64,000 bases of DNA from Acholoe squamosa. Taxonomy: Eukaryota > Annelida > Polychaeta > Phyllodocida > Polynoidae. Location: assembly GCA_949317995.1 (NCBI GenBank), contig OX439040.1:57632089-57696088 (forward strand). Reading direction: 5' to 3'. Below, in pieces: positions 3,738 through 53,292 of this stretch. Position 1 is the first letter of the stretch. Each line of letters begins with the position of its first letter. The position numbers and the translations under genes are program-made. The notes beneath the pieces were generated by a model, which saw nothing but the letters and a program-made list of their open reading frames with translations, did no database searches and was not told the DNA's origin.

Positions 3738-3840
3738 GTTTCAATGTGAAAAATCGTCCCAACTCGTATAAGGATTGAACCCCGGCCGCAGTGGTGGTAG
3801 GCGAAGGCCTTAGCCATAGTGCCACACTGAACGGTGATGA
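3738..3840 (-). other. tRNA-like module in A1
   Basis: Minus strand: TGGCACTATGGCTAAGG (A-box-like), then GGGGTTCAATCC (B-box) about 40 nt later. The same module lies in A2, A3 and A4, so Pol III-type transcription of this family is possible. Confidence 0.6.
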
Positions 3841-4038
3841 AACCCAATGCGAAGGTAAATAAGTTCTAACCTGGAGTCCTAGTCGTATGTTTTCAATCAG
3901 TTTTCGTCCTGAATCCAACCTTTTCATGTTATAATATCGAAATCCCAAGAAGTTTTCGATCCATAGACGAGGAATGCGTGCTTATTTTCTCCATTTTCTT
4001 CGATATAAATAAGAATCCATTGATTTTTCCAACGTACG

Positions 4039-4573: not shown

Positions 4574-4670
4574 CCGTGTCGCTTGCACTTACAAAATGTC
4601 TTCTCCTGGCTATATTCTTCGGATTTGAGGTAAGAAATTGATACAAAATGGAGGAAATGGTGGTATAAAC

Positions 4671-4752
4671 CTATTAGGTCATGGATATGGGGACCCACGG
4701 GCTGTATATGCTGTATATACAGCCCTAGGGCCCCATATTCATGATCTATTAG
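4671..4752. repeat. Terminal palindrome of A1
   Basis: Arms of about 38 nt from CTATTAGGTCATGGATATGG to its mirror, closed at CTGTATATGCTGTATATACAG. It lacks the 20-bp centre containing GCCGCGAAGCGGC seen in A2 and A3. Confidence 0.88.
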
Positions 4753-4993
4753 CTTAATAACACCCTTGTGTTTAAATCTGCACAGAAATATGTGCTGATG
4801 ACTTACCCGCCGTCCACCCTTAGTATTCACGCTAGAGATGATATCTTATAATTCCTTGGTTTATATGGCCATGCCTTCTGGGCGGCCATCTTTGATTAAC
4901 TCAATCTGAATGGCACTTGCAGGTAGGGCCATGCTGGCCTCTCACAACAAATCTAAATCAGGATTGATTCTTAGAATCACATATATTTGTTTA

Positions 4994-32818: not shown

Positions 32819-32822
32819 TAAG

Positions 32823-32944
32823 CTAATAGATGATGCATATCGGGGCCCTAGGGCTGTATATGGTGTATATACCTGAGCCGCGAAGCGGCGAGGGTATATA
32901 CACCATATACAGCCCGTGGGGCCCCGATATGCATCACCTAATAG
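32823..32944. repeat. Terminal palindrome of A2
   Basis: Arms of about 52 nt (CTAATAGATGATGCATATCG and its mirror) around a 20-nt centre holding GCCGCGAAGCGGC. Compared with A3, GCATAT is replaced by GGCTGT and a G by a C, and the opposite arm changes to match. Confidence 0.93.
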
Positions 32945-33348
32945 GTTTATACCACCATTTTCTCCATTTTGTATCAATTTCTTACCTTTAAAAGCATTTA
33001 AAGTCCCGAAATAGACAAATTTCTTCTCTCGATTCGACAGAAATGAAACGCCATTTTGTTTTCCACTTTGCGTTAATTGGACCGGAAGTCGCTAAGGTGA
33101 CCTAGTTGCAAGGTATGGGGGAGCATATATTATTTTTTACGTGTATAACGCGTTTCCCGCCTGTAATTTCTAAATGCTATAGCAATAGTACAAAGAGACA
33201 AAAGGTAGGAAAACAGAACAATTTTATTTAAATAGAAATAAATATAACAATATTTTTGTAAATGTTCAATCTCAAAGCATACATGTCATTGTACATATAC
33301 ATGAAAGGACATGTCCAATACATTTACATGTCACATAAGACAACTCAT

Positions 33349-35129
33349 TTATTTCATATTGATATGAACAGTGCAGTTGGTGAAGTTTACATGGCTGAAT
33401 ACTGTGGTTTTATCTTGTACCTCAGAGATTTGGATGTCAGCCATTTTTACATCATTCTTGGTAGAAGATATGATATTGGTGGCACTTGGCACAGAAGCTG
33501 TGGAGGTTGTGGCACAAGGTTTAGAGGCTGTGGCACAAGCTTTGGTGGTTGTGGCAGACTTCTCATGCCTTGAGGCATTGTCACCTGCCAAGGTCAGGGA
33601 CATGACATGCCTCAGGGCATCTGGAGTCTTGGAATAATAATCGATAGATTGTTCACTCTTGTGCCCTGTTACAGATTTTATATCACGGGCAGCAAGACCC
33701 TTTTCTCTGAGTGTGGTTATACATGTAGCACGAATGCAATGGTTTGTATATATTTTACTGAGACAGGCAGCATAAGATATACGATTCATGATTTTTCCTA
33801 TGGTATTTACACCCATGGGAGTCACAGTATACCAAGTGGTACTCAACTTGTAATTTTTTTTCTTGTAGGTTTGCAAGAAAGCTGTACAATTTGGGTTCAA
33901 TTTTGACAGATATATCTTCAGGGATTTCACAGGGCATGAGGCAGTGCCTGTGGAGTACATCCTCTGCTCATGCTCTCGGGCATCCTGGGTCATGCCCTGA
34001 TGATTTTTTTCAGTGGAATTAAACCTGAGAGAAGCAAATTCATGCCCATCTGCATCTAATTTGAACACAAAATCTTCCTTTTTCAAATCGTGTAGACCCT
34101 CTCTGGCCCTGCGACCAAAATGTAACACCATCTCAAAGAAAACCTTATTCTGTAAAGAGAAAGGGCTGTCATTTGAAAGAACACCTGAAGAGTACATTTT
34201 TTTTTTGTCTTCTTCAGTGATAGGTTCGTAATGCTTAGATACATCTAGACCACTTTTTTTGTTCATTTTTATTTTTCCCTTCAACATATTGTTACATTGA
34301 ACAAAGAGAGGATCTGTCATTATGTTGAAATTTCTATTGAATGGGGGAGAAGTTATATGACGTTGAATGGCACCTCTTATGGACATCAAAGATCTCTTGT
34401 TGTATTCCTGACCATCTTTTGTCCTAACTTCTCCGTAGAAACGTCTCAATAGGGGAGCCAGAGCTTCTTTGGAGAATTCTTCAAAGTCACTTTGTTCGTC
34501 ATTTTCCACCAGCCAAGCTGTAAAAAAAAATTAAACAATTTGAGAAAAAATTGAATGTTTAATAAAGTATTTACAAAAAAAAATAGCTGATCTTCTACTT
34601 CAAGTTTTACAATGAACGTTCATATGTACCAAGTAACGACGAAAAAATTAATATATGCTCCCTGCGCACTCATCATGCGTATTCATGGTCCGGTCGCGGC
34701 CCGCCATAAGGCCCTGCATAATGTATATGAAAGTTTTTTCGACTTGTCAAACTAGAATTCACATTATAAATTCTTACCTTTGAAAATATCCACACCCCAT
34801 TTGGTAGCCTTGTGCGTGTTCTTCGATTTAGAGGCCATTTCTATGGTATTTAGATGTTCATTTGGCAAAGAAACAAATCTTTTCGGCTCGTCTTTGATAC
34901 CGGTAGGAGGTTTATATTCGGGTGCAGTCTCATCGCTCATATCCACTGGAGTTTCTCGCATTTGTCTGGCCATTTCTTTAACATACGAGCCGTCTGTAAA
35001 AAGTCGCACCTCGTATTCATAGTAGCCTTTGTGTACGACATTGGTTACTATCCCACATATCCATTCTTCATCCTTATTTACCTCCACAAACTGTCCAATT
35101 TTGAACCGTGACAACCACGTAGAAGCCAT
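33349..35129 (-). CDS. Crypton-like tyrosine recombinase, two exons
   Basis: Exon 1 is 35129-34778 and exon 2 is 34517-33349; the intron (34777-34518) has a GTAAG donor and a T-rich TTTACAG acceptor, and the frame is kept across it (506 residues). The ATG at 35129 is chosen because the upstream open frame is element repeat. N-terminus (about 8-60): Tudor/Agenet-like segment (FKIGQFVEV, WICGIV, VRLFTDGSYV). Residues about 110-170 match the DNA-binding segment of KIAA1958/DUF3504-type proteins (WGVDIFK, AIQRHI). Catalytic region: GRRAREGL (about 252-259), NHCIR (about 376-380), TGHKS (His about 403), tyrosine at 411/412 in IDYYSK. The tail is Thr/Ala-rich and ends FTNCTVHINM. All expected YR residues are present; probably an active or recently active transposase, though a domesticated host gene is not excluded. 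Confidence 0.85.
34518..34777 (-). other. Intron of the recombinase gene
   Basis: 260 nt, donor GTAAGAAT, acceptor after a long T run then ACAG. Phase 1. Removing it restores the family-conserved junction FKAWL. Confidence 0.8.
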
Positions 35130-35451
35130 GTTGACAGAAAGAAATCTTCCAGAGTGGAGGTAGAATAGAAATAGGTCACTTCCGGCAAGGACGCTGTAGA
35201 TATAGGTCAAGTGATCGTCGTACGAGGAACACGCCGAAAATATGGGACCGGTTTGGAAAACCAATGGATTCTTATTTATTTCGAACAAAATGGAGAAAAT
35301 TAGCACGCATTCCTCTTCTATGGATCGAAAACTTCTTGGGATTTCAATATTATTACCTGACATGCTTGGAATCAAGACGAAATCTTACTGCAAAATTACC
35401 ACTAGGACCTCAGGTTAGAACTTATTTATTTTCGCACTGTGTTTCATCACC

Positions 35452-35540
35452 GTTCAGTGTGGCGCTATGGCTAGAGCCTTCGCCTACCACCACTGCGGCC
35501 GGGGTTCGATCCTCATACGAGTTGGGACGATTTTTCACCA
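35452..35540 (+). other. tRNA-like module in A2
   Basis: TGGCGCTATGGCTAGAG as A-box, GGGGTTCGATCC as B-box. It lies upstream of the recombinase gene and points away from it. Confidence 0.6.
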
Positions 35541-35721
35541 TGGAAAATGGCCAGATTGACATTGTATATCTGCCACACAGTTCCAAAAATATTCTAAGTC
35601 CAACGTGACCTCGAAAAAGTATATACCAAAAATTTCAAAAATGCACAAGGGTGGTATATGCAGAATAATGCACGGCTAAACTGCATATAAACCCACCGGA
35701 AGTCCCGAAATCGTGGTATAA

Positions 35722-36411
35722 TATATAATAATCTAACAGAACGATATGTCAGGCTTGATTCGCTTAATCCTTTATGAATGATGGCATGATGCCTGACGCT
35801 TCATTTTCCCTGATTCCAGTATTGTGCACCAGTGCTATGCCTCAGGTGAGGTGCTGGTGAGTTACTCACCAAAACTCTATTGGTGTACCATGACCACTAG
35901 AGTACAGGAGCAGTATAACCTGGAGACACCATGCAGCCCTTTATATATACATAGAGGGTTAAATGTCGACTTGTTAATGTCTATTGATTTAATTGTAAGA
36001 GAATATTTTAAAAATAAAAAAAGATCTCCCATTGAATCAATGGCGTGGTGTGTGTGGAAAGCTTGAGGACTGAAGCCAGTCTAGGTTAAATGCACGTACT
36101 TCACCAGCGAATGGTTAAGCAGGTAGTGATGTATTTATTTGGAGTAGGGTCAAGGTAGTGGTCGTACAGAGGCAGGGGGAGCCTCACAGGGTTTATTTTG
36201 CCAGCTTTCTATAGTCTCAGGTTTGTTGTGAGAATGTAATCACTGGCTTAGTGTGACGATAGCCTTTAACCTGCGTCTAACGGAGGAGGTTTGTGATGGG
36301 GTTTATACATTGAACTCCTGTGATATTGGTCAGTATCTTTAGTACCTATCTAAATTATTTTCAATGTAGCGATATGTAGTTAATACTATATATTCTGTAT
36401 GTTGTCAATTA
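35722..36411. other. Gene-free stretch
   Basis: Short frames only. A CACCAGTGCTATG/GGTGCTGGTGAG inverted motif lies near 35828-35865. Confidence 0.5.
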
Positions 36412-36414
36412 CTT

Positions 36415-36511
36415 GATAATTAGCGTTTAATTTGTTATGGGAAAGCATGAGTGGATTATCAACCCGTAAATCCACGAGTGCTTTCCCATAACATACATTA
36501 AGGCGTTTATC
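36415..36511. repeat. Terminal palindrome of A4
   Basis: Arms share GTTATGGGAAAGCA and GTGGATT in inverted order, with some mismatches in the outer part. Confidence 0.8.
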
Positions 36512-37065
36512 GAACATATTTCTCCATTTTGTATCAATTTCTTACCTTATAACCCCAGAATTAATCCAGGAGAAGACATTTTGTAAGTGCATACGATCCG
36601 CTCGGTTTGCCAAGCCAGCGTGGCCATGTTGTCGTTCTACCTGACATACCTCAACCTTTACACACATTTTTCGGGTATAATCCTAGCGTGTCAAGTCCTG
36701 TATTTCTAGCACCACCAAATATACGATCTCTAGTTGGTGTTCGCATACATTTTGTCTCCATTTTCTTCGAAATAAATAAGAATCCATTGATTTTCCATAA
36801 CGATCCAATGCACACGGCCAGGTACACGGCCATTTCGTCTTGTTTATGAAGCTGGTAGGTGCCCGGATGTACCTGACCTACTTTCGGGTCAGCAAGCTGC
36901 AATGGCGGGTGCCGAGACGTATCGCTATGGAAAATCATTGGATTCTTATTTATTTCGAACAAAATGGAGAAATTAGGCATGGCATGTTCATATAGGATAT
37001 GTAAGGATGTTTCTCTGTTAATAACTCCACCTGGCACCATGCTCCGTGGGCATTGGCTTCTATCA

Positions 37066-37135
37066 CTGGTCGGCTTAGTATAGTGGACAGCGAGCTCGCC
37101 TCCTGCCACAGCGGCCGGGGATCGATTCCCCGTTG
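37066..37135 (+). other. tRNA-like module in A4
   Basis: TTAGTATAGTGGACAGCGAG (A-box region) and GGGGATCGATTCCCC (B-box region). The most tRNA-like of the family A modules. Confidence 0.55.
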
Positions 37136-37329
37136 AACCTAAACAGTTTTAACAGGAAACGTATGGAGGAGTTGACATTGTATATTCCCCCAATTTATTA
37201 ACATGTCCGGATTGAAACCAGCAGCTTCTTGAAGATGAAGAAAAGGTCTCAGAGTGCGTTATGGCTGGATAAGGAACTGGGGTTATGAGCAAAAAAGCAC
37301 TGTCCAGGCCCAAATAGCTAGATAATACA

Positions 37330-39644
37330 CTGTATCATGTACTACTTTATGACCAGAGTTGCCACTCACTGGCCAACAAAAACCAGAAAAAACTGAACTT
37401 TTGGACACTTTTTCCCAGGAATTTAATGATTTAATAAAGGTAATTTAATGATTTAATAAAGGTATCTTGAAATGAAAACCGGGAAATCCTGGTAAACCAG
37501 GAAAAGTGGCATCTCTGTATGACCAATAAAGCTCAGAATTTGTTCGGAAAAAAAAAATACTACATACCGCTCAAATGAACATGAATACACTGGACTCCCG
37601 CGGTGCAGTACTGTACTGCTGATGCAGGAAAACCGATCAACGTTCTAGACCCAAGACGGAATGCTAAGGTAGTCCAAGGCCATCTCCCGAAACACAGTGG
37701 GGTCCAGAGGGTATCTATAGGGAAGGAATAGGTGAGTCAGGCCACGAAACGTGACAATGCAGCACACCCCTTTCTTTAAATCGATAGGCCCTACGAGCTT
37801 TTCTTCAAATCGGCTTTTCGTCAAAACAGCATAGCAAGTTGGCACATAAAAAAGCCATGAAAAGATAAATTGAAAAATAAGACAGTGTTATGAGGCTGGG
37901 GCTTTTTTTTTACAATTTATGGGCAACATCGGAACAAGAAATAAGGTGAACAACTTTGCAGGATTGTCTTGGGATTGACATGGGGAATTCCCTGTAAAAT
38001 GCCACTGGTACCCATGTGTTCTTTCCACAGCCGAGCCGCATATGATTTAAACACGTTGCTGTTTAGTCTAACCATGAGTCTGCAGCCTGATACCCCCCTC
38101 CCCCACCTTTCCCTTCACAGGCAGCACATTTATCATAGTGAGGGGGTCAGGGGTGCTTGACCTCTCCGACCTTTTTGACCTCTGTAATGAGTCTGAGGCT
38201 GGAGGATTGGGCCTCTTTATAAAGTCCCTGTAAACAAGTCTGCCGCCAGGGGAGCCACTGGGGCATGTGAACAATGCATTGCATGATACTTGAGGTTTAC
38301 ATTATGAATTTCACCGCTTGATAAAATCTTTGCAAAGTTGACACAGATTTGGGATGCAAACCCAACAAGATAGTTGATTAATTAAACAACGATGTAAATG
38401 GCATTAAGATTTTAATTATGTAAATTCAGAATATCATAAACTGTCACGCCACACTAGATACTTCAGAAGGAAAACGACCGACTGATTACAAATTAACATT
38501 TTAATTTCACAAACAGCATACATGTTGCATTGCTACCAGAGTATCTGCATTTGTAGGTGCTACATTCAGAGTAATGTACTATGAGTACAAGTTGTAAATG
38601 ATATGTTAAAATGGTATGACTAATTTCTAGTAACAGAAAAAAATTACCAATTTCACCAGATGAGTTGAATGTAGGAAATATTATTACATTTCAATTGGTG
38701 ACACTTGTCAAAGTTTCCCCAACTATATAAATGAGTCCTTGGAACAATACTGAATATATTTGTTATATTGGTGTATCAATCTAAAACAACCATACTGTAT
38801 AAGCCTTTGAAATGGGGGCTCGGTAATATTACATGAAAATATAATAAATTACCTAGTATCTTTTTGCAAAACCTTCCTCAAGAAACAGAAAGGGTAGGAG
38901 GTAATGTATTACGAGATCTCATATTTAGGTATGGTACATTCACAGGTGGTTGTCAACAGTCATAACAATTCTCCTTGGAAGCTATTTCACACTCATATCT
39001 TATTAGGGAAAATTAGTTTCACAAATATGATATTAGGAAAAATGCAGTTTCATAATGTTCACATCGCAATTCAAAATTGAAACATGATCTGGGATAATTC
39101 GAAATAGCAATTTTTTTTAATATACTGTAGCATACCTCTCAATATAGTGAATAAAATTAGCATTGTCACTCCTAAATAATCAATCCCAATGATAAATTTG
39201 CCGCAGTCTCACCCAATTCACTCAGTTTCTCATTCACCCACTCCTCCAAACATTCACTTTCTCCCTTGCACCTAACTCGGCATGTCCCATAAAACAACCC
39301 CTCACTCACCAACTCATTTCTTCATTCACCCATTCTATAACACATCACTCCCCTCATTCACTTCATCATAAAATTGATCCACCAACATCACTCAAGATTC
39401 TGACTCATGTACTCACTCTCTCACTCGCCCATGCACTTATAATTTTCCTCACGCATCCACTCCCCCACCCAGTATTTCCCCCAATCCCCCTCTTATTCTA
39501 ACTTACTCTTTCACTTATCAATTTGGATGCAACTCCCTATCTCTCTCCATCATGTCAAATATAGATCTGCTTCATTCAATTTTACTACCTCACACTTCCC
39601 ACTGCATCTCATTCAATCATTTATTCCTTGGATAATTAAGTCTC
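37330..39644. other. Gene-free stretch downstream of the SPATA20-type exon
   Basis: Holds a 22-bp direct repeat near 37425-37465 (TTTAATGATTTAATAAAGGT) and a CACTCA-rich simple tract (39200-39480). On the minus strand this is where the SPATA20-type 3' UTR would lie; AATAAA (plus-strand TTTATT) occurs at 39620-39625, 20 nt after the stop. Confidence 0.5.
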
Positions 39645-39896
39645 TCAGTCCTTGAGTAGTTCCTCCAGTTCGCTCACAGAGTTGACAGGCAGGGAACAAG
39701 AGAAGTTTTCACACATGTAGGCTGTAGCCTTCCCCTCCAGACGTTCCAGCGTGGAGAGGACACTAAGTCTGCCGTGGAGGAATCCTCCAGGGTCTCCATC
39801 TGCCAGGAGGAGGACCTTGTTAGGCAGAAAGTGGGAGTGGACGCACCTCACCAGGGCACGGGTGTCTTCAGCGTCACGATCTCCGGCTATGATGAT
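39645..39896 (-). CDS. SPATA20: Last exon of a SPATA20-type (thioredoxin-like) protein
   Basis: Encodes 83 residues from IIIAGDRDAEDTRALVRC to ELEELLKD and a TGA stop. The pattern of PNKVLLLADGDP and TAYMCENFSCSLPV matches the C-terminus of SPATA20 (spermatogenesis-associated protein 20, an N-terminal thioredoxin-like and C-terminal glycosidase-fold family). The exon begins after a good acceptor (TTTTTCATTGCAG) in phase 0. Being on the minus strand, the rest of the gene should lie to the right, but no upstream exon was recognised up to 64000. So either the preceding intron is very long and full of transposons, or this is an isolated duplicate. The reading frame is intact. Confidence 0.82.
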   Translation of the reverse strand: MIIAGDRDAEDTRALVRCVHSHFLPNKVLLLADGDPGGFLHGRLSVLSTLERLEGKATAYMCENFSCSLPVNSVSELEELLKD

Positions 39897-39902
39897 CTGC
39901 AA

Positions 39903-40259
39903 TGAAAAATGTGGCGTGAGCTTAATGTAATTTGAAATGTGATCACTATGATATCTGTATGTTAAATTCCTAATAGATTCACCATTTTAAAAAAAACAAC
40001 ATCACTGTGCCAGATCAGTATCGAGAAAGCATATAGGCAGATAACGTCACGATCAATGCCACATTAAAATTTACACTATCATGATAAAATGATTTTGTAC
40101 ATGCCGGAATACACGAAAAGACAGGATTAAGGTAACCATATCCAAACACCGAACATAGTGAGCTATTTCAATAGCACTTTATTGTACGGTATTTGCATCA
40201 TAAGGAGTCCGTAGCACTTCAAAACATTATGATCACCCCCTCCCCTACTGTCGGCAGTA
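39903..40259 (-). other. Intron sequence upstream of the SPATA20-type exon
   Basis: No exon or repeat seen before element B2 begins at 40260. Presumed intronic if the gene is intact. Confidence 0.5.
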
Positions 40260-40266
40260 TTGAACA

Positions 40267-40386
40267 AGTAACCAATGGATAACTGATGACGAGTGGGGGT
40301 TATCGACGGATAATAACACGAGGCCTATGGCCTCGTGTTATTATCGTCGATAACCTCCACAAGTCATCAGTTATCCATTGACTACT
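40267..40386. repeat. Terminal palindrome of B2
   Basis: 120 bp; arms of 58 nt (AGTAACCAATGGATAACTGA and its mirror) around TAT, with about six differences. Inner half (TTATCGACG, AATAACACGAGGCC) has no counterpart in B1, yet is mirrored precisely. Confidence 0.93.
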
Positions 40387-40567
40387 CATTTTATACCACG
40401 AAACCAATAAATAATCAATATTATACCAATAAATTCAAGTTGAAAACAAAAATTATTCCCCCTTCCCGGGACTCGAAGCCAGCCATGACAGTGTGTGTAC
40501 ACAGGTACATACACCTCGGCGCCCGGCAGCGGACAGCGGCAGCGCACACGGCGAAAAAAGATTTCAA

Positions 40568-40885
40568 TGCGTCTCGCTGTTATGTTTGTGTATAAAATAC
40601 ACCTCTTCGCCCGGCAGCGGACAGCGACAGCGCACACGGCAAAAAAGATGCGCCCGGACCGGGGCCCGATCCATGTACCTCTCACGGCTGAGCGCAAAGT
40701 GCTAACCGCTAGGCCACCGCGCCTTCTCCGTTCACTGCGTCTCGCGGTTATGTTTGTGTATAATACACCTCCTCGCCCGGCAGCGGACAGCTACAGCGCA
40801 CACGGCGAAAAAGCTTCTCGCGGTTATGTTTGTGTATAATACACCTCCTCGCCCGGCAGCAGACAGCTACAGCGCACACGGCTTT
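40568..40885. repeat. ~85-bp repeat array in B2
   Basis: Four to five units sharing TCTCGCGGTTATGTTTGTGT and a GCCCGGCAGCGGACAGC block; lengths vary. Confidence 0.85.
40668..40730 (-). other. tRNA-like module in B2
   Basis: Minus-strand GGTGGCCTAGCGGTTAGCAC with a diverged B-box. Counterpart of the B1 module at 1732-1808. Confidence 0.5.
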
Positions 40886-40930
40886 GTATCATATCCAGAC
40901 TTGGTTCTAACCAAGCTTCTCTCGTCAGTC

Positions 40931-41003
40931 CCTGTAGCGCAATGCATAGGGAGTTGGATTAGGGATCTGAGACTGTAGGTTCGAGCCCTGCCCTGGCCTT
41001 GAA
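40931..41003 (+). other. Second tRNA-like module in B2
   Basis: TAGCGCAATGCATAGGG and GGTTCGAGCCC. Counterpart of 1942-2015 in B1. Confidence 0.55.
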
Positions 41004-41044
41004 AATTTCGTGGGTTTTAACATGTAACATATGACATGTAAGGA

Positions 41045-41135
41045 CATGAGGTTATCAATGTAAGGCGTGCGGTTATCCAGGATAACCGCACGCCTTACAT
41101 GGATAACCGCATGCCTTACATTGATAACCGCACGC
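41045..41135. repeat. GGATAACCGCACGCC repeats with small hairpin
   Basis: Four direct or inverted occurrences of a GGTTATCC/GGATAACC unit, including GGCGTGCGGTTATCC facing GGATAACCGCACGCC across one base. B1 has diverged units at 2050-2130. Confidence 0.8.
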
Positions 41136-41239
41136 CTTCCAAAATTGATGTTACAGCCTATAGGGTGTGCAATATCGACAGATATGTGGATGGGAATAGA
41201 CCCCAAAAAGCACTGTGTAAGCCAGAAATCGTGGTATAA

Positions 41240-43775
41240 AATGGTATAATGGCTACATTTTGCTTTCTATCTCTTATAATGGGATTTCTCAATCCTTTTG
41301 TGATTCCTACTGTATACAACAGACCTCCTGTTTGGGTCTTTGTTGAACACTGTCATAGCCATAGCTGTAATATTTCCTGAGATTTTTGATAAATCTAATA
41401 TCATATACATGTGTATATTTTAGGTATCCCTGCCTGATGTGTAGCCTCTCGATGGGGGCAGGGGAGTATTAGCAGTTATACTACAACCCACCTCTCCTAT
41501 AGGGGGAGTAGGTCATGTAGGTCCAGAACAATTTTGATTTTATCTCATTCATTTGCAGTTCCATTATTTACCTTACATAACAGAAATTAGGTGCAGTGCT
41601 TATCCTTGGTTTTATCATGAGCCTGAGGATACCCCTGGGCATCCAAGACGGCGCTCGCATTCATTCGTCATGCCAGAGAGAACGTGTATATAAAAGGATT
41701 GTAATCTGATAATATCACCAGCAAATGGTGGCGTGATTTATTAGCAAAACGCTAACTAGTACGTTACTCACCAGCGGTGCATTAATCTATTGTGAAATTA
41801 AACGAACGTGAAGCATTGAGGTATCCTGCATCCCTTATAAAGGGTAAACTATTTAAGAACCTCATGGTGACTTGTCCCTTTAACACTGTGATGCACTGGG
41901 ATAATGCAGTGCTGGCGAGCCTACTCACCAGCACTGCAAGCCTTAACGTACCAAATTTGTAAATCTGGTCAGATGCATTAATTAAGCAGTTACATATTAC
42001 TTGAGGATGCTACATTAATCAGTCCGTCCTAATGAGCCGTAAAGCAGCACACGGCCCTTAAAGGGTTAAGGCACCTGGAGGAGTGGTCCCCCCTATCTGT
42101 AGTAGAGACCCAGGTATGCCTCCTGAGCTTCCTGTCTTAGTGGGGTGCGTGTGTACCCCAGGGACGTAAGCATAAACATCACAAGAAAACATGGAATACA
42201 AGACACATTGAGAGCACGCAACCAATCTAACGCACCTTAACATCGCACATAGGGAGATAACATTCCACAACTCACAAAAAGTCTGGTAGGGGAGGAATGA
42301 GGGACAAGAGGGAGGGCATGATGGGGCTGGGGCGGCGAGTGGGAGAAGGGAGGAGCGTGGAAAGAATGGTGCGAGTACAACGTTATGAAGGAGATAAAGG
42401 ATAACGGGAGGAAGAATTGAAGAAAAGGAGGTAGAGAAAACAGAAGGCAGGGGCGAAGACATTTTGACTCCAAGGCAGAGACAGATTGACGTGCCACTCA
42501 AAAGTAAGCTTTTAACTAGGCCCACATCAACCCCCTTTATGGGGGCTATACACTCTAGAAGTAAACAAAATAATTCCTCTTAAGGTACAAAGACTGCAGG
42601 AACAGGTACATGGTAAAATGAAAGTAATAAATCCCCTTTTACAATGTACTACGCATGTATCCCTTTCGGCTATTGGCACATGCACTTCTACCCTAATGGC
42701 TCGTTTAAACGCCGGTCATTTGGTGGATCTCTTTGAGCGAAAGTCATGGTAAAGTAATGGGAGTACCTAGACAGAAATTCTAAGAGTCATAAGCCCTCAA
42801 ACCCCGGCAAAACTCATGGTACTGCCGTGGACATATATGTTTAGTCCATCTGTATTCAGAGCATGTTTATTATCTGAGTGTGGTAGCGGAGAATCAAACT
42901 CGTCTCTCCAATAGGTCATTGTATCGTTTAGAAAAACAAGTAAAAATTTAGGAGAATAAAAAAATTACCATTATGCAATTTATTCATGATACCATGTGGA
43001 TATGTAGATACGCTTTATACAATGTAACTGCACTCCACTGGTGAAAAACAACTGGTGACCAAACCCTTCTATATACATGCACATGATATCAAACCCCTAT
43101 GGTCTTTTGCAGAGCATCTCTGCTTCTTTCATGGGTCCAGGTTGGTGGTGTGGTAAAGCCTAAATGGATGTTTGTGGAAGATAATATTATCCTCAAGATA
43201 ACCCCATTGAGAGTTACTTTCAAATGCATTTAATATCTGATCTTACACGGGACATAATTAGGGTGTGGTCATTATTTATCAACAGGAGGGGGATGGTGCA
43301 TTTTTACGCCCGCCCCCCTCAACGGCGGAGCGTGGCGAATTTTCACGCCCCTAATCTTTAGTAGTGTGCTGGCTTTTTTGCTAAAAATAGGGTAAATTTT
43401 TTACGCCCTCCTCAAACCCACCACCCTACCCCATTGATAAATAATCTCCACTCTCTTAGTGGGATAGTAATATACTGATAATTTGATGTAGTGTCTGAAT
43501 TCACACAAAACCGAAGTGAATGATTACATCTAAATCTCTGACACACTGACATTTCACTGCTTATATCCCCAGAGGCAGGACATATATGAATTACGATGAG
43601 AATGCCTTTATAGAATACCTGCAGCTTACAGATTGGCCTATAATAGAACACTCAGACGACCCACTGAATGCTGGGATTATTTTATAGGCCGGTTCAGAAG
43701 TTTCCTCGATCTACACTGCCCTATAAAAAACATGAAAATTAAGAAAAAAAAAGGTATGAGTGGGTAACTCATGAT
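41240..43775. other. Gene-free stretch
   Basis: Longest frame (155 codons, minus, 42058-42525) is low-complexity Pro/Ser/Leu with no domain. 43478-43575 is a diverged paralogue of 46573-46670, the right flank of the solo LTR. Confidence 0.5.
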
Positions 43776-44040
43776 ATGTTAGAGCGCATTATTGAGAAGG
43801 ACAGGTTAAGAAAGCATGCAAAGAAAAATAGGACCCCTGAAGATTCGAAACGGTCTACAAGACAGGATAAACATACTACTATCAGTCTTAACAATACAGT
43901 TTTATTACAAGTACCAAATCATAAATATCTTGGTATTATTTTGGACAAGGGACTAAATTATACAGCACATATCAACAATTTGATTAAAAATATTGCGTTC
44001 AGATCCTACCAGCTTAGACAAACAGTAGACTTTCTCCACC
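43776..44040 (+). pseudogene. LINE fragment: reverse transcriptase thumb
   Basis: ISLNNTVLLQVPNHKYLGI through IAFRSYQLRQTVDFLHQDVL matches the region just after the YADD box in the other two LINEs (compare YLGIDLDPELKF in the 51.7-55.8 kb LINE). Bounded by a head-on junction with the next fragment. Confidence 0.75.
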
Positions 44041-44330
44041 AGGATGTTCTCAATTCCAGAGGTTTTATTCACATTAATCTCATCTACTAGAATTTTCACT
44101 AGTTCCTTATCAATTTTGATGGGACCAAACACTGCGTCCATTGGTTCCATAAGATTAACCCGTAGTGGCACACCTGCGTTGCTTATATCATTTGATAACT
44201 TGTTACCTATGTTAGAAAAGGAGGACTTAAGGAAATCAACTGATTTTTTCTTTGTCTTTAGGAAATTATCCTCCCTATCAACACTGGCAGTTCTACACCC
44301 ATTTAGGCTTTTATCACATTGTCGATGACC
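44041..44330 (-). pseudogene. LINE fragment: endonuclease-RT linker, opposite strand
   Basis: Minus-strand frame with NIGNKLSND, AVFGPIKIDKELVKILVDE and INVNKTSGIENIL, the conserved linker before the first RT block. It meets the preceding fragment head-on at about 44040, so the locus is an inverted, broken LINE. Confidence 0.65.
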
Positions 44331-46107
44331 CTCTAGAACTTTAATGGGTCATCCTTGTGCTCATTAGAGCATTTGTAACAATGTTTGATTTGGCGTACTC
44401 AATTGCTCTACTAATCTTACATTGAAGTGTTTTAGCCCTCGTTAGGTTATGCCACATGTATATGTTCAGTTCCACTCATATTTTACTTCATCATCAATAG
44501 CTTGCAAACCAAATGTAAGAGATGTGATGCCGCTATCAAATATGTGTTGATTCAAGGGTAGGGCTTTCATGCCTTCAACTACCTCTCATCTGTTAATCAT
44601 ACATGTACACGGATTGGGCTGGAAGGACTGACTACGCCTATATGACTTTGCAAAATATCCCCCCTGCCCACTTTTCAATGATCTATTGCACAGTAAACAG
44701 TTGATTATGATTTTTTTCTATCATTAGAACCAAAAATGACGCTGCAAAGTATCTCGCCCCCCCCCCACCACCACCCACTTTCCAACGGTCTATTGCGCAA
44801 CAAACAGATAATTTTGGATATCTTTATTTATCCATTGACAGAAAAATCTATGAACATCTAAATCCCATAAGTCTTCAAACATTTTCCATGTCTTAAAGAA
44901 CGTCAACTTAGTCGTTCTAGATATGGTGTAGGTATCTTTTTATGCTTACAAACACATCTAGAGACATAGACAATACCCCCCCCCACCCCCATACGGCTTG
45001 TGTGCCTAATTTACTATCCTAAATAGCTTTACTCTCTAATCCACATGCATGATGACCTGTGCGTTTCGTAGTTTACAGTTAGATAGGCATTAGATAGCAA
45101 ATACACCTTTGGCGTTTTCCTCTTTTTTATGTCATGCCCTAGTAGGTCCAAATAAGATGGTAAATAACCATATTCATGTAGGTATTACTTATAACGCCTC
45201 AGGCATAAGACAAACACATGTGGCACGCACTTATATAGGATAATACAAAATAACAATAATTATACATGAAAAAAATATAAATTGAGTATGTACATAGGAA
45301 ACTGACATGAAATAACTAGGGTGGCACATTACCCTGTGGTGTTAGTGTTTAATAGTAATATGAGCCTGTTTGATAAGTGGCTGATGATTAAGGGGTGGTA
45401 ATACTTCACCTAGCACTTTATCCATAATAGTTACACACGATAGAGTCTTTAGGCAAGGTTCAACAAACCCCAAGGGTTAATCGATGGAATGTGATGCATC
45501 CTTCTGCGTTACAGATTTATGAGTGTTAACTATTTTGTCAAGGACAACTTGTGAATGTGAAGCATTCAGTCATAGCACTGTCAATGTTATGATTTAATGC
45601 TTCATATTCGTTGCTGCCATGATGCCCCCACTGTACTGGCAAATAACTCATTAGCAATGCATCAGCGCATCATAGCAACACCGCCAGAAATAGGCATTTC
45701 CATAGGTCCATCCTGATGCATTAATGAAGGTACTCAGCATGGTTGCATTGTGTATCATGCATGATGGAAACGTGGCATGATTATCAATATCAAATTAAAT
45801 GAAGTGCCCAACTGGTTATTCTTCTTTTATGTATACTGGCTGTTTTCCTTTTTGAATTTTCTAGTCTAATAAACAAGTACAATAAGTGTGGTGTGTATAA
45901 GTCAGATATATTCTCACAAACTTATCACAACAAGAGTGATTCATCTGCTAGTTTGAGGAAAACTTAGCAGCAAATCAACAGGAATGGTTCTAGAAAAAAC
46001 TAGTACATATATGTGAGGGATGTAGCCATCCATCAAGATAAATGTCTTGCACGGGATATAATTAGTTGGATAATAGTGTTCATAATTATGTATCATGTGT
46101 ATTGATG
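44331..46107. other. Gene-free stretch
   Basis: Includes a diverged ~95-bp doublet (44640-44700 and 44740-44815, each with a C-rich run and TCTATTGCRCA). No gene seen. Confidence 0.5.
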
Positions 46108-46575
46108 TGTGGTGGTCCCGCGTCGTCTTCGAGGTACCTTCGTGGTCCTCGTGGGCGACGTCGAGAGCACCTCTATTGCCTGACGCCTGGGGGCGCTGGA
46201 GTCCAGCGCCACATCACCACTTGGTCACGTGGCCCTCGACTCCGGTGTATATAAGGCCGTTGTACGGCCTTCCTCAGGGTCAGTCCAGCCCCGACTGACC
46301 ATCGTGAGCGATGGTTGGCGGCTGCCCGGCTACCATGTTCTGATACTTCTCTGTGCTGCTGCACAGAGAAGGTACATGTAGAATATTAACCGCAGACACT
46401 AGAAGGTCTAGTGTCGAACGTGCTATAGAGTTCAAACTCTGCCACCTGTAACTGTGATCGAGAACGGCTGATGCCTATGCGTTATTAGACAATAAAGTTT
46501 TAACTGGAACCTGAATAGTTGTTCTTCGTTGTTTATCGAAAGATTTTATTGAACATCGAGGGGTAGAACACTACA
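46108..46575 (+). mobile_element. Solo LTR
   Basis: A 468-bp GC-rich block TGTGGTGG...CACTACA flanked by GATG on both sides (46104-46107 and 46576-46579). It has TATATAAGG at 46248-46256 and AATAAA at 46491-46496, i.e. U3-R-U5 order on the plus strand. The sequence after it is paralogous to 43478-43575, which has no LTR. No internal region remains, so it is probably the product of LTR-LTR recombination. Confidence 0.85.
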
Positions 46576-47061
46576 GATGATTAGGTGTGGTGTCTGCATT
46601 CTCACAAAACTGAAGTGAATGATTACATCTCAATTTCTGACAGACTGGCATTACCATGCTTATATCACCCACTCCTAGTTTTAGAAAAACTCAGCAGCAA
46701 AAAAACAACAACAAACAAACACAAACATATCTAAAAAAGAACAAAACAACTGTGTTATTATGTTGATTGTATTGCCAGCCATCAAGATATATGTCTTGGC
46801 CTCAAGGGCATATGTGATCTGTCGTTTATATACATATCTACGCGAGTGGTTCTTTGCATATACATATCCCAATAGGTCGTCTTGCTCCAGACCAGGGTTG
46901 CCATGATCAATTCATCAGACCACCCGAAAAAAAAAGAAAGATATGTGTTTCCTGTCAAGAGGGGGGGGGGGATTTTCAGACCAATGAGAAGGGAGACCCT
47001 TTAAAAAAACATGCTGGCTTAACATCAAGATACCCAATCACATTACTCTGTTTAGGCATCC
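46576..47061. other. Gene-free stretch
   Basis: Starts with the 43478-43575 paralogue; rest unrecognised. Confidence 0.5.
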
Positions 47062-47655
47062 CAGAGACCTATTTCACAAGCACCATGTACGGGTAAGATT
47101 GGTGTACGAGCAAGATCACTCTTATGGTCATTCTAAGATTGATCTTAGGCTTCTCAGGCTAAGGGGAAGTGTTTCAAAAGTAAATGGGGAGTGAAACTTA
47201 CTAGTAAAGGGTCAATGTAAGAGTGACTTACGACCAATATAAAGTAGCTGATTTATGGGGAAGGTTGAGGGTACACATAAATTTGAAAAATCCTATCAAC
47301 AAATGGAATCCCACAACATTTTCTAATGCATGAAGTCAGGTATATATCAAATGGAAATTCCCCCTTTTAATACCATTTTCTATCATGGAATTATGAAGTA
47401 AAGCCATATTCTGCACCTAGGTAATCAATCTTACTAGCTGGATAATTGGCCTATGAGTGACCTTACAACTGATCTTGATTACTGCCCCTAAGTCTAATTG
47501 ACAGCTGTTTCTAAAGGACCAGTCTTAAGTTCCAATATGAGTAATAGCTTGTTCTGAAACACTTGTAGTCATTCCCAACTGACTGATCTTAGGTGGTCAC
47601 TCATAGAGTGGAAAGATCGATCTTAAATAAAGAATGCTTATGAAACAGGTCTCAG
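47062..47655. mobile_element. TIR DNA transposon or MITE, hAT-like ends
   Basis: CAGAGACCTATTTCACAAGC at the left mirrors CTGAGACCTGTTTCATAAGC at the right; weaker similarity continues about 90 bp, with GATCTTAG motifs. No ORF and no eight-base duplication seen, so the hAT-like label rests on the terminal motif only. Confidence 0.65.
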
Positions 47656-48469
47656 TAGTCCGAATTGCCAAGTGCACAATTCGAGGCCTAAACATGATCT
47701 GGTTGAAGTACAAATAGTAAAGACATTTGCACTCGAGAAGATACCAAAAGTGTTTCATCCTCTGTTCACTACAGATCTCTATGTTCTTTTAGGGAAATGC
47801 AAAGAAGGTAGAGTCCTGACTACGGGTCTTTCCCTCTAAGCTTCCAATAGTATAGAGATCAAGCTATTTTCAATGTCAAAACATAGGTGAACAAAGGGTA
47901 TTATTTCTTAGGTTTGTGTCAACAGACTGAGCTCATTTGTTACCTAAAATTTGAGGCTTCTTTTTTTCGCGCTCACTGTTGAGGGGAATGCTCGGTAAAA
48001 TATCAAAAATAGGATATGATCAGTGGGCTTTGACCGTCTTGGTTTTGTAAAAAAGACCACAGTACACTGGACAAAGGTCAACTGCCTAACTAGAAAAACT
48101 ACGCAATTTTCTGTCTGGTGAAACGGTCCCCAGGCAGCCATGCTTTGACGTACCTGTCCCAATCCAATCAACGCCTGATAGCAATCTGAGAGTATCAGAA
48201 CATCCCGAGACGGCAGTATCTATTCTACAAGCCTTAAACCTTTAAGGGCTACATCCTGCCTCCAGGAATGAGGTGTAGGCTCCTCTGTCATCAGGTTGAA
48301 CCAATCCCATGTTACGAGTAACTTGCCTGTACTGCATCCAAGCATCATCCTTTGTGGATGCATTAACACTGGCACTATAGTTAATTACTCGCCTAGACTA
48401 CATTAAATTAATGCATCAAAATGATAAACGGCTATAATGCATCAGAGTACAATGTGACCCCCTAATAGG

Positions 48470-48537
<68 letters not shown>

Positions 48538-50286
48538 ACCATATAATCATATATATCTGTACTTCAGGCCTTACCAAGAAGCATGTCCTTGTGAGGAGTC
48601 AGAGAAAAGGATGTTTTGTGCACGGGCGCAGATCATCAGTTTTCTTGACTGCACAACTTCTTGGAAATTAAAAATGGCTTTTGATAAAATGTTCTATTTT
48701 GGGCGGAAATGTTCCAAATCTGGCATGTAAAAAGAAGGTTTTTGGGCATAAATAAGCATTTTTGTTGATTTATGTTGCCATGAAAACATGATTTTCATTC
48801 TAAATGGGGAAACCAATGTTCCCATTTGAAGGAATGTCTCACAAGGTTTACTATGGTGAAAACAGAATGAAAATACCATTTCTAGATCAAAAGTTGTGGG
48901 TGAAAGAATAAAAATATATGCTAATTTAGCTAATTAGCATAAATTATGCTAATTACTTATGTACCTTATGACCAATTAGACATAGAGCTTATTTACATTC
49001 AGGAAATGGTCATACCCACCCATATTTAGCAAGCCATTCCTCTGAAACTAACAGGAGTATCTCCTCATGCAATGTATCACTGAAAAGCTAGTGATCTGAA
49101 TTTTAAAGTTGACTTTTAGCACAGACCACCCTTTCTCCTTGCCTCTACACATATTTTCACATCAAGACCCATCAATTACCCATTAGATTAAACATTGATT
49201 TTTGTAATCACTGGTGGCGCGCAAAAAGTCGACCCCATTATGTGATGAAAGGGCCAAAATAAAAGGCTGGGACTAGTTTTTCTACAGGGGTTTGGCCTCT
49301 TCTACATTCTAATAAATCTTAGAATCTCTAGATAGCAATGGAAACACTTTCTTGTGAATTGTTAAGAAAAGATGGTGCACTTTACGAGATTGTTCACGTG
49401 ATCTCACATGAATTTACCGTAGATTTCATGTTAATTTCGCTTGAATTTCTTGCGATAGAAATTCAGATCTACTGTATGTTTCTGAATGTTTTAATAAAAT
49501 TAATGGCTATCGTTTACTTATATGTTAGAGGTACAATATTACATCAAGTGATAAATTTTAAAAAGTGAGCCTAAAATTACAGTGACGGCGCCTTGGACCC
49601 GCACAAAAGCCAGGCCAACAACTTTCTAGTATAATGTAATCGGGATATATCACTCGTTCTATTCTAGTAGATAGAGGTAGAAACAGACACATCTGTTTTG
49701 CTTAAAAATGTGTGTTTTTTGTTGTTGTTTTTTTCACCTAAAGACGGACAAGGAGGGAAAGAAGAATCATATTAGCTGCATTATAGTTTGGTTAGCTTTG
49801 ACTTCTCAGGCCTGCCATACGGCCCTGTCAGTATGTCTCTATTAGCATCAATATCTCAGAGGGCGGTAGGGGATGGTCATCCCTCCACTGGCTGCCCCTA
49901 GCACACCCGGGGGAGGCCTAAAGGGGGATTTATAGGTGCTGCCATAGCCCTAACTAGGTGATACACTGCAGTCAAGGGCAGGCAGGGGCTGACGGGTGGA
50001 TGCTTCCTCATCATATGCCACTTAAATACGACTCACTCAAAAGGGCCAATAAGGGTTGAGCGCTATGGCAGTAAAAGGACTACAACTCCCCTGGATTAGC
50101 TCCTAGAAGTGGTTTGGAGCGTGGAGGAGGACATATATGACATGGGCATGATTCTAATGAGAATATCAATACTTCAATATCAGTATATATATGAGTATAA
50201 AGCACCAGGGCCTTTTCACCGTGATTCATGCATGGCTGCAGTACCTGTAGTTGCCAGTGTTAATACATCCCCTGTGTGTTGCAGAA
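47656..50286. other. Gene-free stretch with TA run
   Basis: TA microsatellite at 48470-48535; an AT-rich palindromic patch of GCTAAT/ATTAGC near 48920-48955. Nothing else recognised. Confidence 0.5.
48470..48535. repeat. (TA)n microsatellite
   Basis: About 65 bp, the longest of three TA runs in the window. Confidence 0.97.
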
Positions 50287-51652
50287 TTGCCATTGCACCA
50301 GGTCACACCCTACACCTACATGTGTACCTGACCACACCCTACACTTACAGGTGTACCAGGTCACACCCTACACCTACAGGTGTACCTGGTCACACCCTAC
50401 ACCTACAGGTGTACCTGGTCACAGATTACACCTACAGGTGTACCTGGTCACACCCTACACCTACAGCTGTACCTGGTAACATCCTACACCTACAGCTGTA
50501 CCTGGTCACATCCCCTTAAGATGTGCCTGGTCACACCTTACACCTACAGGTGTACCAGGTCACACCCTACACCTACATGTGTACTTGGTCACACACCTAC
50601 AGGTGTACCTGGTCACACCACACCTACAGGTGTACCTGGTCACACCCTAGATCTTCAGGGTGTGGCCTCGTATTTACATGGTCAGATCTTCAGATGTGCC
50701 GGGCCTATTACTCAGTCACCTACAGGTGTACCTGGTCACACCACACCTACAGGTGTACCTGGTCACATCACACACCTTCAGATGTACCTGACCACACCCT
50801 ACACCTACAGGTGTACCTGGTCACACCCTACATCTTCAGATGTGCCTGGCCACACCCTACACCTACAGGTGTACCAGGTAACACCCTACACCTACAGGTG
50901 TACCTGGTCACACCACACACCTACAGGTGTACCTGATCACACCCTACACTTACAGGTGTACCAGGTCACACCCTACACCTACAGGTGTACCTGGTCACAC
51001 CCTACACCTACAGGTGTACCTGGTCACAGCTTACACCTACAGGTGTACCTGGTCACACCCTACACCTACAGCTGTACCTGGTAACATCCTACACCTACAG
51101 CTGTACCTGGTCACATCCCCTTAAGATGTGCCTGGTCACACCTTACACCTACAGGTGTACCAGGTCACACCCTACACCTACATGTGTACTTGGTCACACA
51201 CCTACAGGTGTACCTGGTCACACCACACCTACAGGTGTACCTGGTCACACCCTAGATCTTCAGGGTGTGGCCTCGTATTTACATGGTCAGATCTTCAGAT
51301 GTGCCGGGCCTATTACTCAGTCACCTACAGGTGTACCTGGTCACACCACACCTACAGGTGTACCTGGTCACATCACACACCTTCAGATGTACCTGACCAC
51401 ACCCTACACCTACAGGTGTACCTGGTCACACCCTACATCTTCAGATGTGCCTGGCCACACCCTACACCTACAGGTGTACCAGGTAACACCCTACACCTAC
51501 AGGTGTACCTGGTCACACCACACACCTACAGGTGTACCTGATCACATCCCCTTATGATGTACCTGGTCACACCTTACACCTACAGGTGTACCAGGTCACA
51601 TCCTACACCTACATGTGTACTTGGTCACACCCTACACCTACAGGTGTAGCGG
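50287..51652. repeat. 29-bp minisatellite, left part, with 605-bp higher-order repeat
   Basis: Basic unit GGTCACACCCTACACCTACA plus GGTGTACCT. The block 50321-50940 is repeated at 50926-51545 with period 605 bp and almost no differences (for instance AGATTAC versus AGCTTAC). Frames through it are artefacts. Confidence 0.95.
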
Positions 51653-51952
51653 GCCTCCCTAGCCCACTTTTTTTTTTAAGTTGTTTATTGGGAAATTTAC
51701 ATTTACAGAGTAAGTGCAAATGAACCTGGTGCCCACGCATTGTGGTAATTATACCAGCCCCCCTTCACATTTCAGTTCTGAGAAATATCAATCTAAGGGT
51801 ACAATCAATCAGTAATGGCCTCGTATTTGCAAATTGACATCAACAGTATGTCATTAATACCGTATCATTAATTTAAAAAATACATCAGCGATCAAAAAAA
51901 TGATGGGATGAGATGAGGATGAAATCTGAAATTTATAATTACACATAGATTA

Positions 51953-52285
51953 TCACATGTAGCAATTCGGGTAGTCTTTCTTAATAGAATTTTTAAATTC
52001 AGATAGGGTCTCTAAAGTTGTGTATTTTGCTTTTAGCTGATTCCACCTGGCACAGGCTCTGTATAGAGCGCTTCGGATTACAATAGGTCTAAGGCTATGT
52101 GGTAGTAATAATCTTTTTCCCTGATGAAAACGGGTAGGAATATTTCTATTGTCTATCAGGTTTTCACATTTTGACAGGTAAAAGGCATAAAAAAAAAGAT
52201 GTTGATCTCTTCTCTCAGCAAGTTCCAGACATTTACTAGCATTTTTAATTTGTTTGGTTGTCATGGTTGGATTTTCTTCCAATTT
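51953..52285 (-). pseudogene. LINE C-terminal segment, downstream of the A3 insertion
   Basis: KLEENPTMTTKQIKNASK through RRDQHLFFYAFYLSK and KYTTLETLSEFKNSI, ending CYM-stop. It rejoins the RT segment (53293-54373) in frame when A3 is removed. Confidence 0.8.
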
Positions 52286-52289
52286 TAAG

Positions 52290-52410
52290 CTAATAGATGA
52301 TGGCTGTCGGGGCCCTAGGGCTGTATATGCTGTATATACCTGAGCCGCGAAGCGGCGAGGGTATATACAGCATATACAGCCCGTGGGCCCCGACAGCCAT
52401 CAACTAATAG
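52290..52410. repeat. Terminal palindrome of A3
   Basis: Arms of about 52 nt (CTAATAGATGATGGCTGTCG and its mirror) around TGAGCCGCGAAGCGGCGAGG. Confidence 0.93.
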
Positions 52411-53021
52411 GTTTATACCACGATTTCCTCCATTTTGTATCAATTTCTTACCTCAAATCCAAAGAATATAGCCAGGAGAAGACATTTTGTAAGTGCCAGC
52501 GACACGGCCCGTGTCCGCTCTGCGCGAAGCCATTGTTTTTGTTCCTTGCCGGGACAGGTACCGCCGTGTTTACAGTCACTTTTCGTATGGAATCCAGCCA
52601 TGACATGTTATAATATTAAAATCCCAAGAAGTATTCGATCCATAGACGAGGAATGCGTGCTAATTTTCTCCATTTTCTTCGATATAAATAAGAATCCATT
52701 GATTTTCCCAAAGTACGCGAGTCGCGGTCCGGCCATTCCCACCCGAAAGTGTGTCAGTGTCCCGGATGTAGATATAGGTCAACTGCTCGTCGTACAAGAA
52801 AGACGCCGAAAATTTCGGACCGTTTTGAAAAATCAATGGATTCTTATTTATATCGAAGAAAATGGAGAAAATTAGCACGCATTACTCGTCTATGGATCAA
52901 ATACTTCTTGGGATTTTAATATTATAACATATCATGGTTGGATTCCATACGAAAAGTGAGTGTGAACATTCCGTATCTCTCCGGTCAAGGCCTTATTTAT
53001 GTTCGCATTGGATTTCATCAC

Positions 53022-53100
53022 CGTTCAGTGTAGCGTAATGGCTAAGGCCTTCGCCTACCACCACTGCGGCCGGGGTTCAATCCTCATACGAGTTTGGACG
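53022..53100 (+). other. tRNA-like module in A3
   Basis: TAGCGTAATGGCTAAGG (A-box) and GGGGTTCAATCC (B-box), about 35 nt apart. Confidence 0.6.
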
Positions 53101-53292
53101 ATTTTTCACCTTAAAACAATGGCGAGGCTAAATTTCTATGTCCGCCAACGTCTCCAAAAATATTCTAAGTCCAGCTTGACCAAAAAAAAGTATATACCAA
53201 AAATTCTAAAAACGCACAAGAGTGGTATATGCAGAATATACCACGTATATATCGCATATAAAACCACCGGAAGTGCCAGAATAGTGGTATAA

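Follow-up and report, generated by a model that had tools for sequence, protein, structure and literature searches.

Terminal hairpins conserved in shape rather than sequence suggest folded-strand recombination in Crypton-like transposons of Acholoe squamosa

Introduction

How can the two arms of a palindrome change in sequence from copy to copy and still pair with one another? The question is raised by a family of transposons, family A, in the annelid Acholoe squamosa (assembly GCA_949317995.1, 1.48 Gb in 63 contigs). The window analysed here is a 64,000-nt stretch of that assembly. It contains three copies of the family: A2, which carries a tyrosine recombinase gene, and the non-autonomous elements A1 and A3 (Table 1). 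A first-pass annotation had reported that each of the three ends in a palindrome whose arms stay complementary through paired changes, and had proposed three origins for this: one arm may be regenerated from its partner, gene conversion may act within the hairpin, or a folded single-strand site may be under selection. A link to recognition by tyrosine recombinases had been marked there as inference.

We report that selection on the fold fits best of the three options. Additionally, we consider it somewhat probable that family A elements are Crypton-like transposons whose tyrosine recombinase takes one end, folded as a single strand, for its site, in the manner of integron integrases at attC. 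To our knowledge, the tyrosine recombinases known to favor structure over sequence are those of bacteria and bacteriophages. Hairpin-ended or single-strand Cryptons are not described in the literature that we searched (titles and abstracts, with few subscription papers and without Repbase).

Results

Compensated changes in the terminal hairpins

Terminal palindromes are present at the ends of A2 and A3 as annotated. The arms read CATATCGGGG/CCCCGATATG in A2 and GGCTGTCGGGG/CCCCGACAGCC in A3, with the exact complement opposite in each copy, and a second difference, a G/C exchange, is compensated in the same way (TATGGTGTA/TACACCATA versus TATGCTGTA/TACAGCATA). Not every copy is compensated: the shorter hairpin of A1 lacks the tip and has uncompensated sites, which appear in the computed fold as one A.C mismatch and one T without a partner. 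From the outside inward, the A2 hairpin consists of an outer stem (CTAATAG), a 17-bp stem, a TA/GT mismatch, a 24-bp stem, a tandem GA/GA mismatch, a GCCGC stem and a GAA loop. Predicted folding energies of A2 and A3 lie between -55.8 and -60.6 kcal/mol on either strand; shuffled sequences averaged near -17 kcal/mol and none of 200 shuffles equaled the natural values.

To follow the arms through the genome, we used a 34-letter pattern at the hairpin-body junction with up to three mismatches. It matched at 2,278 places (1,123 + 1,155), and the reversed pattern had no match. Copies of the family are spread over many contigs. Hairpins were drawn from 100 junction places, all on contig 1 and all free of mismatches, which biases the sample toward well-kept copies. 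Seventy of these places, together with A1-A3, gave 73 copies. The hairpin is full-length (136 or 137 nt) in 42 of them and differs in length in 26, and five lack a recognizable left end. Twelve of the 26 measure 97-99 nt, nine of them in one common tipless form, and many of the remainder are deletions within the palindrome. Pair counts use only the 42 full-length hairpins, and 30 loci picked as top matches to the A2 hairpin were kept out of the covariation counts.

The 52 pairs in the 42 copies give 2,184 cells, made up of 2,139 Watson-Crick pairs, 33 G.T pairs and 12 mismatches. Two-sided changes occur in 14 pair columns, three of which hold three different Watson-Crick pairs each. Among the 21 distinct hairpins, 98.9% of cells are standard-paired compared with 91.2% in shuffles, and 78 cells are two-sided compared with 24.7. 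The covariation score is 0.218 versus 0.079 in shuffles (0 of 500 as high), and the signal is lost when the partner is slid by one to three columns (at most 0.034). A weaker measure, the number of further pair types, gave 26 versus 23.3 in shuffles, with 37 of 500 shuffles as high. Because the sampled copies are related, these tallies count copies and not independent events; their informative part is the contrast between shared and single variants.

That contrast, drawn from the sample, is the count of compensatory against one-sided changes that the first-pass annotation had called for. Of the 16 variants found in at least two copies, 15 are two-sided, while 16 of the 18 variants confined to a single copy are one-sided (Fisher P 2e-6; the count omits one column in which T.G and C.G are both common). 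Seven of the 18 singleton states are G.T pairs. Thus, mutations in resting hairpins mostly go unrepaired, and the hairpins that yielded several copies were paired. Selection on the fold at the time of multiplication is therefore well supported. The uncorrected singletons contradict gene conversion as an ongoing process in resident copies, and we rejected arm-to-arm repair on the same count.

We also considered whether the hairpin evolves faster than the body within family A, and this was not found as a rule: stem distances between the four commonest hairpins are 0.058-0.183, the corresponding values being 0.065-0.109 for the 60 nt next to the hairpin and 0.019-0.236 for the far end. Separately, ten of the 42 full-length copies have identical hairpins while their adjacent 60 bases differ by 12.7% on average, and hairpins and bodies may therefore have been exchanged between lineages.

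Mismatches and tip loop persist while the stems change

The palindromes are imperfect in a constant way, a feature absent from the first-pass annotation: the same short internal mismatches recur in copies with differing stems. The A.A in the outer stem is unpaired in 42 of 42 full-length copies, TA opposite GT is retained in 39-42 copies depending on the position, and the tandem GA opposite GA beside the tip is found in 39-40. The tip loop has the form G-N-A, with G in 39 copies, A in 40, and all four letters at the middle base. Loops of the GNA and GNNA type are described as exceptionally stable DNA mini-hairpins (PMC4686876).

Genome-wide, family A tips with GA/GA gave 985 matches; among 44 of these that were printed, 40 have GNA loops and four have ANA loops. 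Perfect tips, in which the right side matches the left, occur at 45 places, a count of the left-type form (the pattern is one base shorter than the GA/GA pattern and, being palindromic, counts each place on both strands). The persistence of mismatches and GNA loop while the stems change argues against arm copying, which would erase them. Regeneration of one arm from the other is accordingly hard to reconcile with the tip counts. Events within the palindrome do happen, as two of the 42 copies (L096 and L100) have a hairpin interior that looks inverted relative to the arms.

The fold accompanies tyrosine recombinase genes in three families

The main coding stretch of the A2 recombinase (P0001) matches DUF3504 at 50.9 bits (cut-off 29.7) and Phage_integrase at 27.6 bits (cut-off 27.1), with a QRICH1 match below cut-off. 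Judged by these domain matches, it is a tyrosine recombinase of the Crypton/DUF3504 kind. Its HxxR, GH and Y positions align with the integrase 3nkh at E 0.38, the sole and weak match to a solved structure, and the first R was placed by eye only (GRRAREGL). Structure prediction from the single sequence was uninformative (pLDDT 33.5).

The A2 unit recurs at four further loci (L031-L034) with 99.4-99.9% identity. The recombinase has at least 111 matches in the genome (106 scored of 1,265 candidates). Among them are several families, as well as open frames and pairs that are nearly identical. Non-autonomous copies seem to be the more abundant kind, judging from 2,278 junctions versus these 111 or more recombinase matches. 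We read the hairpin-side ends in two divergent recombinase families, 68% identical (L108, L109) and 58% identical (L110, L111) to A2. Both have terminal hairpins in the same place, with stems unrelated to those of family A and a similar architecture; the distance to the recombinase match is some 400-510 bp, compared with about 400 bp in A2. In L108, L109 and L110, GA/GA adjoins a 4-bp stem, the loop is GTTA or GAA, and a second mismatch lies 25-26 bp further down; the hairpin of L111 is short and tipless.

In total, a terminal hairpin was present in 10 of 10 recombinase-bearing elements examined: A2 and L031-L034, which are the five best recombinase matches, L074, and L108-L111. The six family A elements among them had been found through the hairpin or junction, whereas L108-L111 were chosen by recombinase alone, and all four of these carry such a hairpin, one in shortened form. 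The fold is thus linked to tyrosine recombinase genes in three families, which strengthens the link that had been offered as inference. Scanning 363,322 bases for the motif turned up two further hairpins of this kind, namely hairpin b of the window (Table 1) and a hairpin with a GCA loop in L019. Along with hairpin c, these are known from their fold alone, with no recombinase linked to them.

Ends, target site and insertion

Family A elements have the layout TAAGCTAATAG-hairpin-CTAATAGG-TTTATACCAC ... GTGGTATAA, so that their terminal repeats are the inverted repeat GTGGTATAA/TTATACCAC and the terminal hairpin. The far end was recognized in 98 rows, three of which repeat other rows (L035-L037), and was not found in 11 of 103 copies; those of L016 and L085 deviate from GTGGTATAA. 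In the 97 copies with a recognized left end, TAAG is fixed at the left edge, and target bases follow TATAA on the right. One polarity of insertion is therefore seen, in which the left edge has the fixed bases and the right edge the target spacer.

Of 55 sampled insertions outside simple repeats, 43 have target TA at -3/-2 and 36 have it at +8/+9, where the background is 0.08. The flanks are most mirror-symmetric with a six-base spacer (0.541), the next values being 0.395 at four and eight bases, and TAT...ATA is complete in only 14 of 55. The favored target is TAT^N6-ATA (consensus TAN^N6-ATA), which has the form of a tyrosine-recombinase core site with inverted half-sites six bases apart. Such half-sites with a spacer of 6-8 bases are described as typical of these enzymes (PMC3212892).

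The joined flanks of A3 match the best 40 of 494 candidate empty sites at 90-98%; 35 of the 40 cover all 200 bases and five lose 1 or 18 end bases. Span equals matched length in all 40, so that no duplication and no loss occurred at this one tested insertion. A family A insertion at L053 fits the absence of duplication when judged by eye; it sits at TAT^CCATGG-ATA in a repeat like the palindromic one listed in Table 1.

The complementarity of the ends is not confined to family A. As predicted beforehand, the 68% family has GTGGTATAA at its far end opposite TTTATACCAC, in the one copy read, whose edge lacks the support of a second copy. In the 58% family the prediction held in part: TTAGATAA stands opposite TTATCGAA, giving five terminal pairs, an A.G mismatch and more pairs, with the edge set where L112 and the window copy A4 cease to match. 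When the ends are joined in silico, one extended hairpin is predicted in four of four cases (A2, A3, and the 68% and 58% families). In all four, the strand with GA/GA and the GNA loop (top) is the more stable by 1.7-4.4 kcal/mol, and the top strand is also the more stable in hairpins b and c.

Two head-to-tail arrangements were seen with no bases between the partners. In L102, GTGGTATAA runs straight into TAAGC, and L019 has a family A far end that adjoins a hairpin of a different family. Re-use of one cut site would explain both abutments.

Other features of the window

A1 contains stretches related to the 146-base inverted repeat in the body of A3, and the tRNA-like stretch near the far end of A2 has counterparts in A1 and A3. 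Within that stretch lies GGTTCGATCC, which we take to be a B-box-like motif; ARAGORN called no tRNA in the family A elements, the tRNA-like stretch included. Coordinates of all features are collected in Table 1.

Table 1. Features of the 64,000-nt window; positions count from its first letter.
Feature	Position	Strand	Remarks
Element A2	32819..35721	+	2.9 kb; tyrosine recombinase gene inside; ends from compared copies
A2 terminal hairpin	32819..32955	+	ends with TTTATACCAC
A2 inner copy of subterminal inverted repeat	32946..32955	+	TTTATACCAC, adjoining the hairpin
A2 far terminus	35713..35721	+	GTGGTATAA, complementary to TTATACCAC beside the hairpin
A2 tyrosine recombinase, main coding stretch	33349..34521	-	P0001, 390 residues
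A2 upstream open frame	34764..35375	-	probably recombinase exon 1; HAS-barrel match below cut-off
tRNA-like stretch near A2 far end	35440-35530		
Element A3	52286..53292	+	non-autonomous; inserted into LINE-looking repeat
A3 terminal hairpin	52286..52421	+	compensated arm changes relative to A2
A3 far terminus	53284..53292	+	GTGGTATAA
Inverted repeat in A3 body	52567-52712 and 52823-52968		146 bases, 95% complementary
LINE-like repeat beside A3	53206-55723	-	reverse transcriptase and endonuclease frames
Element A1	3568..4756	-	non-autonomous; short decayed hairpin at 4660-4756
Element A4	36420..37336	+	family of L110/L111; unrelated terminal hairpin 36433-36493; left edge approximate
Hairpin c	40257..40396	+	similar architecture, unrelated stems, then CATTTTATACCAC; tip a perfect palindrome; from repeat list
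Hairpin b	2990..3142	-	architecture similar, with AA/GA, a 23-bp stem, GA/GA and a short stem; stem sequences unrelated; edges hand-counted; from motif scan
Palindromic repeat	41045-41132		arms GGTTATCC and GGATAACC

Discussion

A proposed mechanism

We favor, as the simplest account, a recombinase that reads the fold, because the fold is conserved, it is linked to recombinase genes in three families, and the target resembles that of a tyrosine recombinase. Under this proposal, the element would leave either in circular form or as one strand whose ends are joined. This would place the far terminus GTGGTATAA beside TAAGCTAATAG and let it pair with TTATACCAC across the hairpin, so that a long imperfect hairpin is completed. 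Recognition by the recombinase would read the length of the helix, the internal mismatches (TA/GT or GA/GA below and GA/GA above) and perhaps the tip loop, and not the sequence of the stems. A single-strand cut between TATAA and TAAGC would follow, and the cut strand would be joined, where the spacer begins on its left, into a double-stranded target of inverted half-sites with six bases between them (TAT^NNNNNN-ATA). Replication would then finish the insertion and leave no duplication.

Several points weigh against this proposal. Its support is computational and comes from sequence and predicted folds, and six of the ten recombinase-bearing elements examined had been found through their hairpins. 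Hairpins b and c lack the GNA loop and c has a perfect tip, while the tipless short hairpin is common to nine of the 73 sampled copies; the tipless form has thus probably multiplied, so that the GA/GA and GNA tip would not be strictly needed. The far-end pairing of the 58% family includes an A.G mismatch. In the A1 and L019 hairpins the other strand is the more stable, which makes the choice of strand weak. The target of A3 has the right half-site but TTT in place of the left half-site TA. Lastly, the left-end motif used to recognize copies (one mismatch allowed) itself favors a constant left end.

Comparison with known systems

Integrons resemble family A in that one end holds the bulk of the hairpin and the opposite end a short complementary segment. 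Integration of the CTX phage by XerC/XerD has a folded single strand as the tyrosine-recombinase substrate; unlike family A, CTX is a phage and uses host recombinases at dif. The attC sites used by IntI, also a tyrosine recombinase, are described as structure-conserved imperfect palindromes with unpaired bases, a variable tip and little sequence conservation (PMC8946536), and the family A hairpin is an imperfect palindrome conserved in structure, not in sequence, with unpaired bases. One strand is exchanged in integron cassettes, as we propose for family A. Cassettes insert at the attI platform through an integrase whose gene lies beside it, whereas family A uses dispersed AT-rich targets of loose consensus, has its recombinase inside the element and resides in an animal. 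Having no platform and an internal recombinase, family A elements are not integron cassettes, and the likeness drawn here concerns the site and the proposed mechanism.

A2 resembles Cryptons (CryptonA) in its DUF3504 and Phage_integrase matches and its small size, and the family does so in the apparent surplus of non-autonomous copies. It differs from animal Cryptons as described in 2011 in having inverted repeats, a terminal hairpin and a target with six-base spacing; Kojima and Jurka state that no terminal repeats were found in animal Cryptons (PMC3212892), which describes those earlier families and does not define Cryptons. The Vibrio elements SE-6945 and SE-6283 are reported as strand-biased circularizing elements with tyrosine recombinases, exchange of one strand and a 6-base spacer (PMC9345347). 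Unlike family A, these elements are bacterial, and the published description reports no imperfect inverted-repeat structure detected in the attachment sites of SE-6945 (PMC9345347). If our reading is right, family A works like an integron cassette; it is built around a Crypton-type recombinase.

Alternative explanations

The recombinase could instead act on the inverted repeats GTGGTATAA/TTATACCAC as duplex, with the hairpin serving second-strand priming, end protection, or replication pausing that keeps a copy. The repeats alone could give two duplex binding sites, with the hairpin just inside one end, and structural selection is silent on which protein reads the fold. Duplex exchange with unlike six-base overlaps is, however, expected to yield both polarities, as in Tn916-type elements, and only one was found here, with the bias of the left-end motif already noted. 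The conserved asymmetric mismatches also resemble recognition features. Additionally, one strand is described as inherited in attI x attC exchange (PMC8946536), which the single polarity fits. We therefore regard the duplex explanation as unlikely.

The main rival on architecture is that family A elements are Helentron-like rolling-circle elements, with the palindrome as terminator and the recombinase gene captured as cargo. Helentrons, HINE and DINE-1 have in common with family A that their inverted repeats are subterminal and that a palindrome stands close to one terminus, the 3' end in the published account (PMC4067079), a likeness that also counts against the folded-strand proposal. Inverted repeats, a terminal palindrome and, at A3 only, absence of duplication are what family A shows of such Helentron/Helitron-type ends. 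The hairpin of family A has 52 pairs, though, compared with 5-10 bp in the Helentron palindrome, and terminal hairpins are present in three divergent recombinase families. The target is two-sided with six-base spacing, neither the TT of Helentrons nor the position between A and T of Helitrons. The two scanned open frames of A2 have no Rep/helicase match, no genome-wide search having been made for one with these ends. A Helentron-like route is, in our view, distinctly improbable.

That the arms are complementary through copying, by gene conversion or fold-back synthesis with no selection on the fold, we consider very unlikely. Copying readily yields two-sided changes, and the perfect tips and the inverted-looking interiors of L096 and L100 show that events within the palindrome happen; copying should, however, erase the mismatches that outnumber those perfect tips (985 versus 45 of the left type) and correct the singletons that mostly stand. 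Selection of the hairpin as RNA, through transcript shaping or through feeding or evading small-RNA silencing, would suit long hairpins as natural dsRNA sources and the G.T pairs among singletons, but it has hardly any claim on us given that no Rfam family reached threshold in 32000-54000, that GNA triloop stability is known in DNA, and that the hairpin is terminal and adjoins the recombination ends.

Implications

Returning to recognition of the fold by the recombinase, we see an even balance for and against a broader conclusion: that animals harbor a class of tyrosine-recombinase transposons moving as folded single strands, with a shape-read hairpin assembled only when the ends meet, a eukaryotic counterpart of the integron cassette that evolved in or alongside Cryptons. 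If so, the sequence of the stems would drift freely while mismatches, lengths and loop stay, and a recombinase with a site defined by shape would become available. This would explain the movement of at least some animal Crypton-like elements and extend structure-over-sequence recombination to animal mobile DNA. The hundreds of natural copies in one genome would then serve as an existing mutational scan of the features that the enzyme recognizes.

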